From a virus: DNA of 20,329 nt. Below the pieces are notes generated by a model that made no database searches, was not told where the DNA came from, and saw only the letters and a list, made by a program, of their open reading frames with translations. The translations under genes and the position numbers were made by a program. The stretch is taken from IMG/VR virus record IMGVR_UViG_3300020202_000230, positions 1-20,329 of that record, one strand, 5' to 3'. Below are positions 2,980 through 19,545 of this stretch, in pieces; within the stretch, counting starts at the first letter, position 1, and every line of letters begins with the position of its first letter.

Positions 2980-3291
2980 TCATTCCTTGGTGGCCGCCGC
3001 CTCCTTCATCGCTGCCTTGAGACTGTCGTACAGGGCGCGCTCGGCCTTTGAGATCGGAACCAGGACGGGCGGGTTCGTGGGGTCCATGCCGGCGACCATG
3101 AGCTGCCAGGCCTGCAGGCCGTAGGCCGCTGCGATCTCCTCGACCGTGTCGATGCTGGCGGCGGTTTCTTCGCGAAGTATCCGGCCGATGGTCGCTTGGC
3201 CGACGCCCGACTTTTTCGCGAGCGCTAGCTGCGACTTGGGCCCGGCCTTGCTCTGCATCAGCGCTTTGAGGTTCTGCGCGAGGACGGACAC
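2980..3291 (-). CDS. XRE-family phage repressor (CI-like, no peptidase domain)
   Basis: The product is a helix-turn-helix protein: L-A-Q-N-L-K-A-L-M opens helix 1, S-Q-L-A-L-A-K-K-S-G-V-G-Q-A-T-I-G-R-I-L is the HTH core, and T-V-E-E-I-A-A-A-Y-G-L-Q-A-W-Q-L-M closes the five-helix domain. A short C-terminal helix (A-E-R-A-L-Y-D-S-L-K-A-A-M) may dimerise. At about 103 residues it lacks the LexA-like autocleavage domain of lambda CI, so induction would need another route, such as an antirepressor. It is divergent from the Cro-like gene across three operators. The start is uncertain: GTG 3291 gives the usual N-terminus, GTG 3318 or ATG 3258 are possible, and the open frame to 3408 runs through the operators and is unlikely to be coding there. 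Confidence 0.8.
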   Translation of the reverse strand: MSVLAQNLKALMQSKAGPKSQLALAKKSGVGQATIGRILREETAASIDTVEEIAAAYGLQAWQLMVAGMDPTNPPVLVPISKAERALYDSLKAAMKEAAATKE

Positions 3292-3319
3292 GGCCTTGAA
3301 TTGGTCTCGGCTTACCACC

Positions 3320-3333
3320 AACCGAGTTTGGTC
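3320..3333 (-). promoter_or_regulatory. Right operator C (repressor-proximal)
   Basis: On the minus strand this reads GACCAAACTCGGTT, the most divergent of the set, immediately upstream of the repressor coding region. Its centre is 23 bases from that of operator D. By position it would control the repressor's own transcription. Confidence 0.5.
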
Positions 3334-3342
3334 GATTGATCT

Positions 3343-3356
3343 AGCCGAATGCGGTT
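3343..3356 (+). promoter_or_regulatory. Right operator D
   Basis: AGCCGAATGCGGTT differs from operator A at two positions. It overlaps the -35 box (TTGACT, 3355-3360) of the rightward promoter, as operator B does on the left, and lies exactly 23 bases from C and from E. Confidence 0.7.
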
Positions 3357-3384
3357 GACTATTTGAGCCGTTTTCGGTTAGTGT
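3355..3384 (+). promoter_or_regulatory. Rightward early promoter (PR-like)
   Basis: TTGACT (3355-3360) is followed after 18 bases by TAGTGT (3379-3384), the same weak -10 style as the left promoter. Operator E fills the spacer and operator D overlaps the -35, copying the left-promoter layout. Transcription would start near 3391, almost at the cro ATG. An alternative is TTGATC (3336-3341) with TATTTG (3360-3365), which would leave a short leader. Confidence 0.55.
3366..3379 (+). promoter_or_regulatory. Right operator E (cro-proximal)
   Basis: AGCCGTTTTCGGTT keeps both outer arms of the operator consensus with a changed centre. It occupies the spacer of the rightward promoter just ahead of the Cro-like gene. 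Confidence 0.65.
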
Positions 3385-3391
3385 GAAGTCC

Positions 3392-3613
3392 ATGTCAGAA
3401 ACCACCACGATGCTCGCCTACGTGCTCGAGCGCCTGCCTCACACCGGCGACGCGCACTACCTCGCCCGCCTCGAGCAGGTAGCGCTGGCCGCCGGCGTCA
3501 GTTTCCACACCCTCCTGAAGATCGCCAAAGGCGAGACGGCCGACCCGCGCGTGAGCACGGTGCAATCGCTCTACGACTACTTCAAGGCGCTCGAGCAGCG
3601 CGAGGCGGCGTAG
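3392..3613 (+). CDS. Cro-like HTH regulator (73 aa)
   Basis: The 73-residue product contains one helix-turn-helix: L-A-R-L-E-Q-V-A-L-A-A-G-V-S-F-H-T-L-L-K-I-A followed by a wing-like loop (G-E-T-A-D-P-R-V) and a closing helix (T-V-Q-S-L-Y-D-Y-F-K). Size, position and divergence from the repressor across three operators fit a Cro-like early repressor that shuts down the repressor promoter and later the early promoters. ATG 3392 is preferred over the in-frame GTG at 3383, because the predicted transcription start near 3391 would exclude the GTG. No good ribosome-binding site precedes the ATG. The next gene starts directly after its stop. Confidence 0.72.
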   Translation: MSETTTMLAYVLERLPHTGDAHYLARLEQVALAAGVSFHTLLKIAKGETADPRVSTVQSLYDYFKALEQREAA

Positions 3614-4027
3614 ATGCCAAAGTCTCGCGTGCGAGTGGCGTTGGATTTCGCGATCAATGTCGCCGGAAGTCTGAACGCTTTCGCCGAGGCTGTAGGCGTA
3701 AGTCCTCAGGTCGTGTCGATGTGGCGCAAGCGAAACGCCATCCCCGCAGAACGAGTCATCGCCGTGGAGCAAGCATCTCGCGGAAGGATTACCCGCCACG
3801 ATCTTCGGCCGGACATCTACCCGCCGAGCGACTCGACTATTGCGGAAGGGGTGGGGGCTTTCTCGATTTCGCATCGCCAGCCTTCGCCAGAAGAGCTTGC
3901 CCTAGATCCACGGCCGATTCAGGGGCAAGTTCGATCCGTAACCACGGTTCCCGGCCCGATTCTCGACTCGGGTTTGGCAAGTAGAGCGCTACCACCCAGC
4001 CGTCCGAAGGCGTCGGGACGGCCATGA
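3614..4027 (+). CDS. YdaS-like / Cro-family regulator with unusual C-terminal tail
   Basis: The first 70 or so residues match the YdaS/Cro-type pattern: G-S-L-N-A-F-A-E-A-V-G-V-S-P-Q-V-V-S-M-W-R-K-R-N-A-I-P, then V-I-A-V-E-Q-A-S-R-G-R-I-T-R-H-D-L-R-P-D-I-Y-P, the typical end of the family. The frame then continues for about 65 residues of low-complexity, Pro/Ser-rich sequence to 4027. That tail overlaps the opposite-strand gene at 3837-4049 by 191 bases, so it may be a weakly constrained extension. The ATG directly abuts the Cro-like stop. In lambdoid phages proteins of this type occupy the cII position and act as DNA-binding regulators in the lysis-lysogeny decision; the exact role here is unknown. 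Confidence 0.7.
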   Translation: MPKSRVRVALDFAINVAGSLNAFAEAVGVSPQVVSMWRKRNAIPAERVIAVEQASRGRITRHDLRPDIYPPSDSTIAEGVGAFSISHRQPSPEELALDPRPIQGQVRSVTTVPGPILDSGLASRALPPSRPKASGRP

Positions 4028-4049
4028 CTTTCCACGGCTGCTGCTCCAT
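3837..4049 (-). CDS. Small hypothetical partner of the lipoprotein (70 aa)
   Basis: The ATG at 4047-4049 lies one base after the stop of the upstream lipoprotein gene and is preceded by GGGAGAA, so the two are surely co-translated. The 70-residue product has a beta-like first half (W-K-V-M-A-V-P, W-V-V-A-L-Y-L-P) and a helix (A-V-D-L-G-Q-A-L-L-A-K-A), ending in a basic Pro-rich tail. There is no signal peptide, so it is presumably cytoplasmic. The family is not recognised. The longer open frame to 4124 is a shadow of the lipoprotein gene. It overlaps the tail of the convergent YdaS-like gene on the other strand. Confidence 0.6.
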   Translation of the reverse strand: MEQQPWKVMAVPTPSDGWVVALYLPNPSRESGREPWLRIELAPESAVDLGQALLAKAGDAKSRKPPPLPQ

Positions 4050-4050
4050 T

Positions 4051-4407
4051 TCATCTTCTCCCTTGTTTGTGGCGTTCCCAAGCGTCGCGCGTGAACGTCT
4101 CGCCCGGGTGGTCATATCCGGCACAGTGAGCGCGCTCGTGCGCGAGGAGGGCGGCGCGATTCGGATGAGCTTCCACGAGGAATATCGCGCACCAGCCCTC
4201 GAGGAAGTTGTAGCCGGTACAGGCGACCAACGACGGTCCGACGGTCGGCGTGCCCTTGCAATACTCGCGCAATTTCACCGCTGGCACGTCGTAGACGATC
4301 TCCCGCAGTTTCGGCCAGTCGGCCGACGGCGCGCGGCTGTAGTCGATCTGGGTGTACGTCTCGGCCGTGGCGCAGCCCGCCAGCAGCAGGACAACCAGCA
4401 AACGCAT
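4051..4407 (-). CDS. Small lipoprotein with HExxHxxGxxH zinc signature
   Basis: The 118-residue product opens with a short lipoprotein signal (M-R-L-L-V-V-L-L-L-A-G-C) whose L-A-G-C lipobox puts the modified cysteine at residue 12. Near the C-terminus it carries H90-E91-R-A-H94-C-A-G97-Y-D-H100, an exact match to the metzincin zinc-binding signature. Four further cysteines (50, 63, 73, 95) could form disulfides. The body is far shorter than a typical metzincin, so it may be a minimal metallopeptidase or a zinc-binding protein. GGGGG precedes the ATG. It is transcribed leftward against the early operon, together with the small gene that follows. Such reversed lipoprotein genes in prophages are often expressed in the lysogen and alter the envelope, for example to exclude other phages; that role is inference. 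Confidence 0.72.
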   Translation of the reverse strand: MRLLVVLLLAGCATAETYTQIDYSRAPSADWPKLREIVYDVPAVKLREYCKGTPTVGPSLVACTGYNFLEGWCAIFLVEAHPNRAALLAHERAHCAGYDHPGETFTRDAWERHKQGRR

Positions 4408-4484
4408 GGAGCCCCCTTGTGAAGGTGGTCAGGTCGCACTGCCATCGTAGCAGGGGCGGCTCCTGCCTCATGGGGGCGGCGTAG

Positions 4485-4682
4485 ATGCCCCTCCAGCGCG
4501 AGAAGAGATCCGCCCAGATCAAGGCGCACGTCACGCCAACGCTGCGCGAGCAGCTCGAACTGTTCGTGAGGCAGGAAGGCAACGTGGTCTCCCTTTCTGA
4601 TTATTTGTTCGGCGTGCTCCAGGAGCACGTGGCGGTGCGCATTGCACGGCAGGAGGTCGGCAAAAGGAAAGCGGTTTCGTAG
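4485..4682 (+). CDS. Ribbon-helix-helix-like DNA-binding protein (65 aa)
   Basis: The 65-residue product has a basic N-terminus, a short strand-like segment (Q-I-K-A-H-V-T-P), a first helix (L-R-E-Q-L-E-L-F-V-R-Q-E) and a second helix starting at the typical L-S-D-Y-L motif (S-L-S-D-Y-L-F-G-V-L-Q-E-H-V). This order is that of Arc/CopG-type ribbon-helix-helix repressors, which bind DNA as dimers through the strand. It is divergent from the lipoprotein gene with 77 bases between the start codons, so it could control that unit or the early operon. Assignment rests on pattern, not on a database match. Confidence 0.6.
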   Translation: MPLQREKRSAQIKAHVTPTLREQLELFVRQEGNVVSLSDYLFGVLQEHVAVRIARQEVGKRKAVS

Positions 4683-4819: not shown

Positions 4820-4900
4820 GTGGCTACACGTATTTACGACCTCCTGCGGGAGTGGCGGCTGCGTATCGCCGAGCGCCTGTACTGGTGGCGCCGGTCATGA
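4820..4900 (+). CDS. 26-residue Arg/Trp-rich microprotein
   Basis: A GTG at 4820-4822, preceded by a G-rich stretch, opens a 26-codon frame whose TGA overlaps the ATG of the next gene (ATGA at 4897-4900). The peptide is strongly basic and amphipathic (D-L-L-R-E-W-R-L-R-I-A-E-R-L-Y-W-W-R-R) and would form one helix with aromatic and Leu residues on one face and Arg on the other. The overlapping stop and start, the usual gene junction in this genome, is the main reason to accept it. It may act as a leader for translation of the winged-helix protein or as a membrane- or nucleic-acid-binding peptide. Confidence 0.45.
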   Translation: MATRIYDLLREWRLRIAERLYWWRRS

Positions 4901-5577
4901 GCCTGGTCGATCAGGCTGTCGCCTACGTCAAGCAGCGCGAGCGCGCGCGCACGCCGGACATCGCCCGCGAGCTACGCATGTCCCCGCCGGACGTCGACAT
5001 GCTGCTCGAGCGCCCCTGCGCCGACGGCGTGCTGATCACCTGCACCGTCGAAGTCGCGGGCGTGAAGGTCAAGGAGTACCGCCCCACGAACGCGAAGGCC
5101 CAGCTTCCGCCGCTCGGGCCGCTCCACATTCCCAAGTTCACCGCCTGGACGGTCTCGGACGCGGCGCGTAAGCCGCCTTCTCCTCCTCCGACAGCGCAGC
5201 CAGCCGCACCCGCGCCGGCCAAGGCGGTGAACCCATCCGAGGTAGACATGACCACCACCGAGAAGATCAAGGCGGCCCTGCGCGAGCACGGGCCGATGAC
5301 GACGTACGAGCTGGGCAAGAAGGTAAAGGTGCCGTTCCTGTCGCAGACCTGCTCTCAGCTTCGCAAGTCCGGTGCGCTCGTCGTTGTCGGCGGCGGCCCG
5401 CGCGCGAAGCTCTACGGACTACCAGGACAGAAGGCGGAGAAGACCGCGGAGGCGAAGCCGAGTGGCGGCGACCACCTCACCGGCACGATCGCCATGCTCG
5501 AGCAACGGCGCCTCGCGCTCATGGTCGAGGTCGAGAAGATCGACAACGCCATCGCCGCGGTTAGGGCGCTGGGGTGA
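4897..5577 (+). CDS. Replication-region protein with two winged-helix-like domains
   Basis: The 226-residue product appears to have three parts. Residues 1-65 look like a winged helix (V-D-Q-A-V-A-Y-V-K-Q, T-P-D-I-A-R-E-L-R-M-S, then a strand pair). A Pro/Ala-rich linker covers about 85-120. A second winged helix follows (T-T-E-K-I-K-A-A-L-R-E-H-G-P-M-T-T-Y-E-L-G-K-K-V), ending in a hairpin before Y-G-L-P-G. The C-terminus is a short coiled coil (R-R-L-A-L-M-V-E-V-E-K-I-D-N-A-I). Its stop overlaps the helicase GTG. The position suggests an origin-binding or helicase-loading partner of DnaB, which is inference. ATG 4897 is chosen because it overlaps the microprotein stop; the open frame extends to 4642 but runs through the repeat cluster. 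Confidence 0.65.
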   Translation: MSLVDQAVAYVKQRERARTPDIARELRMSPPDVDMLLERPCADGVLITCTVEVAGVKVKEYRPTNAKAQLPPLGPLHIPKFTAWTVSDAARKPPSPPPTAQPAAPAPAKAVNPSEVDMTTTEKIKAALREHGPMTTYELGKKVKVPFLSQTCSQLRKSGALVVVGGGPRAKLYGLPGQKAEKTAEAKPSGGDHLTGTIAMLEQRRLALMVEVEKIDNAIAAVRALG

Positions 5578-16822: not shown

Positions 16823-17080
16823 ATGGCTGCACGGCAACTCAGCAGGAAGAACCCCGACGGCACGCAGATGGGCCAGTCGGCCACGGACAAGATCGGCTTC
16901 TACGGCACCACGGCGATCGTCCAGCGCTCGGGCTCGGCGCAGGCCGCCCTGACGCTGACCACGGTGAAGACGACGGGCTTCGGCTTCCAGAGCTCGGCCG
17001 CCTTCGAGGCGTTCATCGCGCAGCTCGAGGAAATCCGCGCGACGCTCGCCGCCCTCGGCCTGTTCAAGGGCAGCACGTAA
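16823..17080 (+). CDS. Decoration / head-fibre-like protein, copy 1 (85 aa)
   Basis: The 85-residue product carries D-K-I-G-F-Y-G-T-T-A-I-V-Q-R-S-G-S-A-Q-A, a pattern (G-F-x-G followed by Q-x-S/T-G-x-x-Q-A-A-L) frequent in small phage head-fibre or capsid-decoration proteins. It ends in a helix (E-A-F-I-A-Q-L-E-E-I-R-A-T-L-A) that may trimerise. It is a close paralogue of the next gene (about 70 % identity over the last 70 residues by eye). GGGAG precedes the ATG. Placement straight after the coat gene supports a capsid-surface role, which is inference. Confidence 0.65.
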   Translation: MAARQLSRKNPDGTQMGQSATDKIGFYGTTAIVQRSGSAQAALTLTTVKTTGFGFQSSAAFEAFIAQLEEIRATLAALGLFKGST

Positions 17081-17129: not shown

Positions 17130-17378
17130 ATGCCAGGCAAAGCACTCGGCGTCGCGAACTCGGTACTCGGAGAGTCGGCCAGCGATCCGGTCGGCTTCTA
17201 CGGGACCAACGGCGTCTCGCAACGCTCCGGCGCCTCACAAGGGGCGCTTACCCTCACCACCTGCCTCCAGTCGGGCTTCGGCTTCCAGACCTCGGCAGGC
17301 TTCAACGCCTTCATCGCCCAGCTGGAAGAAATCCGGGCGACGCTGGCGGCGACCGGCCTCTTCAAAGGCAGCGCGTGA
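17130..17378 (+). CDS. Decoration / head-fibre-like protein, copy 2 (82 aa)
   Basis: The 82-residue paralogue of the preceding gene shares G-F-Y-G-T, Q-R-S-G, A-L-T-L-T-T, G-F-G-F-Q and the nearly identical end N-A-F-I-A-Q-L-E-E-I-R-A-T-L-A-A-T-G-L-F-K-G-S. The N-terminal 12 residues differ, so the duplication affects mainly the core and C-terminal helix. A single Cys appears in the middle, absent from copy 1. GGGAG precedes the ATG. Its stop overlaps the GTG of the DUF115-like gene. Two copies could assemble mixed oligomers on the capsid. Confidence 0.65.
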   Translation: MPGKALGVANSVLGESASDPVGFYGTNGVSQRSGASQGALTLTTCLQSGFGFQTSAGFNAFIAQLEEIRATLAATGLFKGSA

Positions 17379-18178
17379 AGAAGCCCTTCCGGCTGGAACT
17401 CCAGACGGACTGCATCGTTCCGCTTCCCCGCATGCAGGAGAACGCGGAGCGGTGCAGCGCGCCGCGCGTGCAGATGGCGCCGCCGCACGGCCGGAAGCTC
17501 GCCATCGTCGGAGGCGGCCCGCTCGTCGCTCACGACCTGCCGGAATTGCAGGCCTGGCAGGGCGACGTGTGGGGCATCAACCACACCGCTGGCTGGCTGG
17601 TCGAGAACGGCATCGACGCCATGATGGTCTCGGTCGACCCGCAGCCGTGGACCCCACCGGCCAACGTACGCCGCGCGCTCCTCGCCACCTGCGCCGACCC
17701 GTCTGTGTTCGAGCAGCTCGCAGGGAAGGACGTGAAGGCCTTCGACCTGCACGAGACCGCGCTCGGCGGCATCTTCGGCGGCTGCACGACGGCAACCCGC
17801 ATGCCGATCCTCGCCCTGCGGATGGGCTACACCGACATCAGCTTCTTCGGCTGCGAGGGGTCCTACTCCGGCGACCGGGACCACGTTGACCGCCACAACG
17901 GCGAGGCGATGGAGCTCATCATCCGCGCCGGCGGCAACGACTACCGCTGCGAGACCGGGCTTCTCATCCAGTGCCAGGACTTCGCGGCGATCTTCGGCAC
18001 GTTCGGCAACTTCTTCAAGAACCGCAGCGGCGGCCTGCTCAAGGCCATGATCGAGAACCCCGACACCTGGGAGATCGTCGCCGTGTCGGCGGCCATGCGG
18101 GACCACCTCGAGAAGGTCAACGGCGAAATCTGGAAGCTCGCGCTCGACGAGCCCTACCACCTGAAGGAGGCAGCATGA
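17375..18178 (+). CDS. DUF115 / MptE-like Rossmann enzyme in the head operon
   Basis: The 267-residue product has a Rossmann-type start (K-L-A-I-V-G-G-G-P-L-V-A-H-D-L, residues 41-55), then D-V-W-G-I-N-H-T-A and M-M-V-S-V-D-P-Q near 83-90, and later I-S-F-F-G-C-E-G-S-Y-S followed by H-V-D-R-H. This order resembles DUF115 proteins, which include archaeal MptE pterin diphosphokinase and bacterial flagellin glycosylation factors. The reaction here cannot be told from sequence; sugar or nucleotide transfer onto a virion protein is one possibility. The GTG start overlaps the paralogue stop and its stop overlaps the next ATG, so it is co-expressed with head proteins. Confidence 0.6.
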   Translation: MKKPFRLELQTDCIVPLPRMQENAERCSAPRVQMAPPHGRKLAIVGGGPLVAHDLPELQAWQGDVWGINHTAGWLVENGIDAMMVSVDPQPWTPPANVRRALLATCADPSVFEQLAGKDVKAFDLHETALGGIFGGCTTATRMPILALRMGYTDISFFGCEGSYSGDRDHVDRHNGEAMELIIRAGGNDYRCETGLLIQCQDFAAIFGTFGNFFKNRSGGLLKAMIENPDTWEIVAVSAAMRDHLEKVNGEIWKLALDEPYHLKEAA

Positions 18179-18609: not shown

Positions 18610-19545
18610 ATGAAACCCATGCTGAAACGCATTGTGGCGGGCGTGGCGGCCCTCGCCGTCGCCGGGGCGGCCCTCGCCGCCAACGTCTTCAACATCCTCG
18701 ACACGGTGGCCCTGAACTTCAGCACGGCCACGGTGACCGGGACCCTGTCCGCCGCCAACGGCGGCACCGGGGTGGCGAACAACTCGGCGGCGACCCTCAC
18801 GCGCTCGGGCAATCACGGTCTCACGATCACCACAACCGGCACGACGAGCGTCACGCTGCCGACCAGCGGGACGGTGGCTACGCTGGCGGGCTCCGAATCG
18901 CTTACGAACAAGACCATCAGCGCAGCGGTGTTCAGCGGCACGCACACCGGAAATTTCGTGTCGAGCGCCACGCAGAGCTCGTTCGGTGGGGCGTATGACA
19001 GCACCGGATCGGGCGTGCTGTCGGTCATCGGCACCACCGGCTCGTTACTCGTGAAGAACACGGCTGGCTCCTCCGGGAACGCCGGGGTGGTGTGGAACAC
19101 GGCCACGTCCACCGACAACAAGTTTCTCTCCTTCGGCACCGAGGGCACTTACACGGAACGGGGCTCGATTGACTACAACCGAGCTGGTACGGCGGTGCGC
19201 TACAACACCTCGTCCGATGCGCGTCTGAAGGACAGCATCCGCGACGCTGCATATGACCCGAGTGCCATCGAACGCATCCGGGTGCGCTCGTTCAAGTGGC
19301 GTGAAAGCGGAGCGTCCACTGCGCGCGGGTTCGTCGCGCAGGAGCTCGTTACCGTCGAGCCGGACGCGGTGAAGACCTGCGAGCCTCGACAGCCGATCAA
19401 GGAATGCCAGTGGGGCGTCGACTACTCGAAGATGGTCCCGCTGCTCGTGCAGGAGATTCAAGCGCTGCGCGCGCGCCTGGCTGCCGTGGAGGCGAAGGCC
19501 ATGGCGGCGGAGCAGGACCACATCCGCGTCTCGGCGCGGCGCTGA
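18610..19545 (+). CDS. Fibre-like protein with signal peptide and S74 chaperone domain
   Basis: The 311-residue product begins with a Sec-like signal (M-L-K-R, V-A-G-V-A-A-L-A-V-A-G-A-A-L-A, likely cut after residue 23). A Thr/Gly/Ser-rich beta region typical of trimeric fibres spans about 35-195 (N-G-G-T-G-V-A, L-T-N-K-T-I). Residues 201-290 form an S74 intramolecular chaperone: S-S-D-A-R-L-K (Ser202, Lys207 as the cleavage dyad), F-K-W, F-V-A-Q-E-L, P-D-A-V, and a final helix V-P-L-L-V-Q-E-I-Q-A-L. Such domains trimerise the fibre and then cleave themselves off. Receptor-binding fibres normally lack signal peptides. It follows the previous signal-bearing gene after a three-base gap. Confidence 0.75.
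   Translation: MKPMLKRIVAGVAALAVAGAALAANVFNILDTVALNFSTATVTGTLSAANGGTGVANNSAATLTRSGNHGLTITTTGTTSVTLPTSGTVATLAGSESLTNKTISAAVFSGTHTGNFVSSATQSSFGGAYDSTGSGVLSVIGTTGSLLVKNTAGSSGNAGVVWNTATSTDNKFLSFGTEGTYTERGSIDYNRAGTAVRYNTSSDARLKDSIRDAAYDPSAIERIRVRSFKWRESGASTARGFVAQELVTVEPDAVKTCEPRQPIKECQWGVDYSKMVPLLVQEIQALRARLAAVEAKAMAAEQDHIRVSARR

Follow-up and report, generated by a model that had tools for sequence, protein, structure and literature searches.

A phage-borne family of small secreted lipoproteins with a conserved zinc-site motif

P0001 is a 118-residue protein encoded near the CI/Cro switch of a tailed phage, in IMG/VR virus record IMGVR_UViG_3300020202_000230 (the window, meaning the whole 20,329-base stretch analyzed here). 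Judged from its sequence, it belongs to a still unnamed family of small secreted lipoproteins carried by phages. The family is new, the kind of object (a small phage envelope lipoprotein) is known, and the zinc site that it carries is unusual. In the role that we favor, P0001 would alter an envelope protein, enzymatically or in an enzyme-like way, so that other phages are excluded; we hold this reading tentatively and give it somewhat less than an even chance.

Export signal, zinc-site motif and predicted structure

The N terminus of P0001 (MRLLVVLLLAG-C12) has the basic n-region, hydrophobic stretch and lipobox cysteine of a bacterial lipoprotein (Lsp substrate). The gene has a coding score of +9.1, and a strong Shine-Dalgarno sequence (AAGGGGG) precedes its ATG. 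The residue at position +2 after the lipid cysteine governs the sorting of lipoproteins to the outer membrane. Because this residue is Ala in P0001, and not Asp, sorting to the outer membrane is favored. A lipobox was recognized in 28 of the 33 aligned family members, and one of these 28 has Asp at +2.

The first-pass annotation had described two minus-strand open reading frames (ORFs), a 118-residue lipoprotein and a 70-residue companion, set against the rightward operon, with an exact H90ExxH94xxG97xxH100 motif in the former. Both ORFs are as described, P0001 does oppose the rightward early operon, and the motif residues are confirmed. By composition, HExxHxxGxxH would be expected 0.013 times over all window ORFs of at least 40 residues and 4e-5 times in the 118-residue protein alone, but the decisive support that the motif is not due to chance is homology.

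No significant match to the family was found in Pfam, NCBIfam, PHROG or the PDB, and it is consequently invisible to current annotation. Such Pfam, PHROG and NCBIfam matches as its members have are in every case below threshold, weak or mostly of signal-peptide character, and a literature search found no description of the family in the papers covered. Identity as an Rz1-type o-spanin was considered and rejected, as neither the window copy nor its close relatives have a co-directional arrangement in which the lipoprotein gene lies within or overlaps Rz; the PHROG Rz match of P0001 (expect value [E] 0.037) covers residues 3-29 only, mostly signal peptide.

AlphaFold2, run on the family alignment, predicted the fold with confidence: the full protein has a predicted local distance difference test score of 87.7 and a predicted template modeling score of 0.77, and for the mature part these values are 88.0 and 0.82. 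The model runs from a strand through a short helix (residues 43-49) and two more strands, three in total, to a helix bearing H90 and H94 (84-95), the H100 loop and a C-terminal helix (105-116). A Foldseek search of the viral library returned only uncharacterized proteins of uncultured phages (best E 1.8e-4).

Conservation across the family

The family is spread over about 38 IMG/VR loci, the cultured Xanthomonas phage Rb1 (XPA09438.1) and a few bacterial genomes. Viral contigs were scanned with the pattern [AG]HExxHCxGxxH, and 33 diverse members were aligned. The motif and four cysteines besides that of the lipobox are invariant or nearly so across them; since the motif was what the scan looked for, some of its conservation in this set reflects how the sample was selected. 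The lipobox, C50, C63 and C73 lie outside the scan pattern. Homologues were also obtained free of the motif condition: L120 was retrieved by patterns outside the motif, L126 and L143 by a profile search of bacterial genomes, and these together with L128 keep HExxHC...G..H, L126, L143 and L128 having an additional residue ahead of the Gly. The glutamate, E91, is invariant, these homologues included. L127, L144 and metzincin-like loci that score low on the profile were treated as outside the family.

C50 and C63 are absent together in L025 and L053, the sole members lacking either, while C73 and C95 are kept there. This joint loss suggests the pairs C50-C63 and C73-C95. In close family pairs, the ratio of nonsynonymous to synonymous substitution rates is about 0.09-0.22, and purifying selection on the coding sequences is evident.

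At L093:459-986 the lipoprotein is repeated in tandem within one ORF, the first copy lacking the zinc site (GREFRRCFGY) and the second carrying GHELRHCFGWKH. L128 (G007, a 164,769-bp phage record) is a diverged second family copy in one phage genome, with HELMHCVYGKYH. The only plasmid-collection match from single-protein searches, in Nonomuraea (E 0.08), was dismissed.

A candidate role at the envelope

We propose that mature P0001 would be held by its lipid anchor on the periplasmic face of the outer membrane and would bind one zinc via H90, H94 and H100, with E91 serving as the general base. It may then cleave, or otherwise alter, an envelope protein, and the changed receptor or envelope factor would exclude other phages. 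The likeliest beneficiary would be the lysogen or the early-infected cell, because the window copy and its closest relatives lie near the CI/Cro switch or in the early region. Of what had been suggested at first, the lipid anchor and the zinc-site motif are supported, and action on the envelope is likely.

Our main argument for catalysis is that E91, which would not be a zinc ligand, is invariant. The same observation bears on the possibility that P0001 is a noncatalytic binding lipoprotein, in which zinc and two disulfides staple a tiny domain that acts as an allosteric receptor plug in the manner of T5 Llp or Cor. Small size, a lipid anchor, disulfides and, in several phages, adjacency to tail genes are all Llp-like traits (PMC9586334), and both the shortest members, of about 62 mature residues, and the want of a protease fold match would suit such a plug. 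A purely structural zinc would not need E91, however, and the residue is kept even in the homologues found independently of the motif; we regard a binding role as somewhat unlikely.

Several observations weigh against the enzymatic reading that we prefer. The main ones against catalysis are that the protein has no Met-turn and is very small: no Met follows H100 in P0001, many members end a few residues past the third His, and the 62-residue mature part of the shortest members is small for a protease. Foldseek searches of the PDB with the full protein and with the mature domain gave no match at E <= 0.001, MMP-11 appearing at E of about 3. No sigma-70-like promoter was found in the 77-bp region upstream of the lipoprotein gene. 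Finally, the family is not limited to immunity regions, several loci lying in structural modules and one beside Rz/Rz1-like genes.

A broader possibility, which we consider unlikely, is that P0001 belongs to an unrecognized large family of secreted zinc peptidases carried by phages. Such peptidases would rank with the smallest known, and across unrelated phages they would cut envelope proteins and so control superinfection. Their mature parts, about 62-110 residues long, would be stapled by disulfides and lipid-anchored, and would lack a Met-turn.

To our knowledge, small phage lipoproteins are a proven means of rewiring the bacterial surface, and those described so far work through binding. 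A widespread lipoprotein family whose zinc-peptidase motif is intact would bring in an enzymatic means to that end, and the member in Xanthomonas phage Rb1 makes the family directly testable.

Genomic contexts of the relatives

In a tree of the family the window copy clusters, with low support, with a branch of members from immunity and early regions. In three close relatives the gene lies downstream of a CI-type repressor gene and in the same direction. At L121 and L124 it follows the repressor gene, which is opposed to a Cro-like gene, and L109 is arranged likewise except that a 99-residue ORF intervenes. This position fits expression in the lysogen. The L079 gene is in an early operon, a few genes past a YqaJ/exonuclease-like gene, and those at L122 and L123 are within runs of small same-strand genes. 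Elsewhere the gene overlaps a tail-protein gene (L132 and L133), has a tail fibre gene nearby (L135), is part of a structural region (L137) or sits beside topoisomerase genes (L130). We counted the adjacency to tail genes at L132, L133 and L135 in favor of exclusion, by its likeness to the position of T5 llp.

The family is not lysogen-specific, since other phages, large T4-like ones included, carry members in their tail, head and lysis regions. The first-pass view that independent orientation in the immunity region marks lysogen expression is consistent with L109, L121 and L124, and it fails as a general mark. The contexts vary so widely across loci that we regard the gene as an accessory one that shifts among modules and unrelated phages.

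These contexts also bear on two other possible roles. P0001 could be a lysis helper, a lipid-anchored zinc protein that weakens or remodels the envelope and so makes lysis by holin, endolysin and spanin more efficient. Listeria Mtz/Tim offers a precedent (PMC8235301), many family copies sit in late structural modules, and the L131 gene adjoins Rz-like (phrog_739) and Rz1-like (LysC) genes. The latter, though, are a separate pair to which the L131 gene is oriented oppositely, no lysis genes were seen to flank the window copy or the nearest relatives, which lie in early or immunity regions, and lysis families fell outside the 25 commonest in the neighbor scan. This role seems unlikely.

The other possibility is a housekeeping-type bacterial lipoprotein that phages have acquired, with a role in host physiology unrelated to phage competition or lysis. 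Homologues do occur in some bacterial genomes (L120, L126 and L143), and that of L143 follows an ordinary dehydrogenase-like gene. The family is nevertheless rare in bacteria (three matches in 369 sampled genomes and three in 398, some of them outside the family) and present in many unrelated phages, so that a role serving the phage is more likely and a housekeeping one very improbable.

The downstream ORF and the rest of the window

The two minus-strand ORFs have the YdaS/CII-like gene on one side and a small plus-strand gene, starting at 4485, on the other (Table 1), and AT skew is negative across 3800-4400, matching minus-strand coding. The ATG of the 70-residue ORF, P0002, lies one base past the P0001 stop codon and is preceded by AAGGGAGAAG. 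Over about 190 bp P0002 runs antisense to the 3' half of the YdaS/CII-like ORF, an overlap that the first-pass annotation had not mentioned, and neither is strongly favored by coding score (-2.4 for P0002 versus -11.5 for the overlapping plus-strand stretch). No export signal was evident in P0002, and neither homologue searches nor inspection of the genes beside P0001 relatives yielded a counterpart. Different genes follow the lipoprotein gene at different loci, and no relatives of P0002 were found, so the two ORFs do not make up a conserved unit and the case for a two-gene unit is weak. For this lack of conservation we rejected P0002 as the functional partner that had been proposed from its coupling to the lipoprotein gene.

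Table 1. Lipoprotein gene of the window and its surroundings
Feature	Position	Strand	Remarks
CI-type helix-turn-helix (HTH) repressor gene (context)	2980..3408	-	HTH_3, E 1.1e-8
Cro-like repressor gene (context)	3383..3613	+	phrog_9425, E 4e-16
YdaS/CII-like HTH gene (context)	3614..4027	+	YdaS_toxin, E 2.7e-20, residues 11-70 only
P0002, 70-residue ORF, doubtful functional partner	3837..4049	-	1-nt spacing; good ribosome-binding site; no detectable homologues
P0001, 118-residue lipoprotein	4051..4407	-	predicted signal peptide 1-11 and lipidated C12; HERAHCAGYDH 90-100; conserved C50, C63, C73, C95
Zinc-site motif codons H90-H100 (HExxHCxGxxH)	4108..4140	-	invariant columns H90, E91, H94, C95, G97, H100
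Divergent intergenic region, 77 bp	4408..4484	.	between lipoprotein gene (minus) and small plus-strand gene 4485-4682

The window also encodes a RecE-like exonuclease, a RecT-like annealing protein, CI- and Cro-like regulators, a DnaB-like helicase, a replication protein, a Holliday junction resolvase, a terminase, a portal, a scaffold, a major head protein and a tail fibre. The large terminase shares 68% identity with its counterpart in Xanthomonas phage PBR31, and a search with the helicase returned one distant locus. Upstream of the helicase gene, positions 4894-5577 match a Ren-like exclusion protein weakly (E 1e-4). Directly after the major head protein gene are two adjacent paralogous small ORFs (16823-17080 and 17130-17378; 85 and 82 residues), both with SGFGFQ/TGFGFQ and FIAQLEEIRATLAA and neither with a PHROG match. 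They are followed in the structural region by a 267-residue protein (17375-18178; KLAIVGGGPLVAHDLPELQAWQGDVWGINH...), likewise lacking a PHROG match, that resembles a nucleotide- or sugar-binding enzyme more than a virion component. The tail fibre (18610-19545) has a signal-like N terminus, and its C-terminal end resembles an intramolecular chaperone (SDARLKDSIRD...).

Comparison with known systems

Like the metzincins (Reprolysin, Astacin and matrixins), P0001 carries HExxHxxGxxH on a predicted active-site helix, and a few members match Reprolysin or Astacin below threshold (best E 0.012). The family differs in having no Met-turn, no match above the Pfam cut-off and no significant fold match, and in being far smaller. 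Of the metzincin-type label first given to it, the motif stands; the two other defining features, a Met-turn past the third His and a fold with a twisted sheet, backing and active-site helices and a C-terminal subdomain, are missing, which rules out filing P0001 as a metzincin, and it perhaps works like one.

The YbeY endoribonuclease (PF02130) has a metal site of the HxxxHxxGYDH type, and three members match it (best E 0.07). YbeY is cytoplasmic and lacks the motif Glu, and it has neither a lipoprotein signal nor a cysteine pattern like that of the P0001 family. In phage lambda, rexAB are co-directional with CI and downstream of it, as are the genes at L109, L121 and L124. P0001 differs in being an exported lipoprotein for which we claim no sequence relation to Rex, and the window unit lies across the switch from the CI side.

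T5 Llp is a small lipoprotein that blocks the receptor FhuA by binding it, and llp adjoins the gene for the receptor-binding protein (PMC9586334). P0001 shares the lipid anchor with the superinfection-exclusion lipoproteins Llp and T1 Cor, and the tail-gene positions at L132 and L133 recall that of llp. Llp is described without mention of a zinc motif (PMC9586334).

In the Mtz/Tim system of Listeria, a phage-derived secreted metzincin and a lipoprotein under a CI/Cro-type switch sensitize cells to phage lysis (PMC8235301). Common to both systems are an HExxHxxGxxH protein, a lipoprotein, adjacent genes, opposed CI/Cro-type regulators nearby, phage derivation and direction to the envelope. Mtz is a soluble protease, processed by signal peptidase I (SPI), with a Met-turn; the lipoprotein is its substrate, and the host is Gram positive (PMC8235301). 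In P0001, by contrast, the motif lies on the lipoprotein itself and there is no Met-turn. Membership in the Mtz/Tim class, a protease with a conserved lipoprotein substrate, was rejected, as P0002 is unrelated, shows no evident export signal and no detectable homologue, and is replaced by different genes in the relatives. The initial statement that no known phage system has this composition needs qualifying: Mtz/Tim is a functional precedent, built on a different protein family (PMC8235301).
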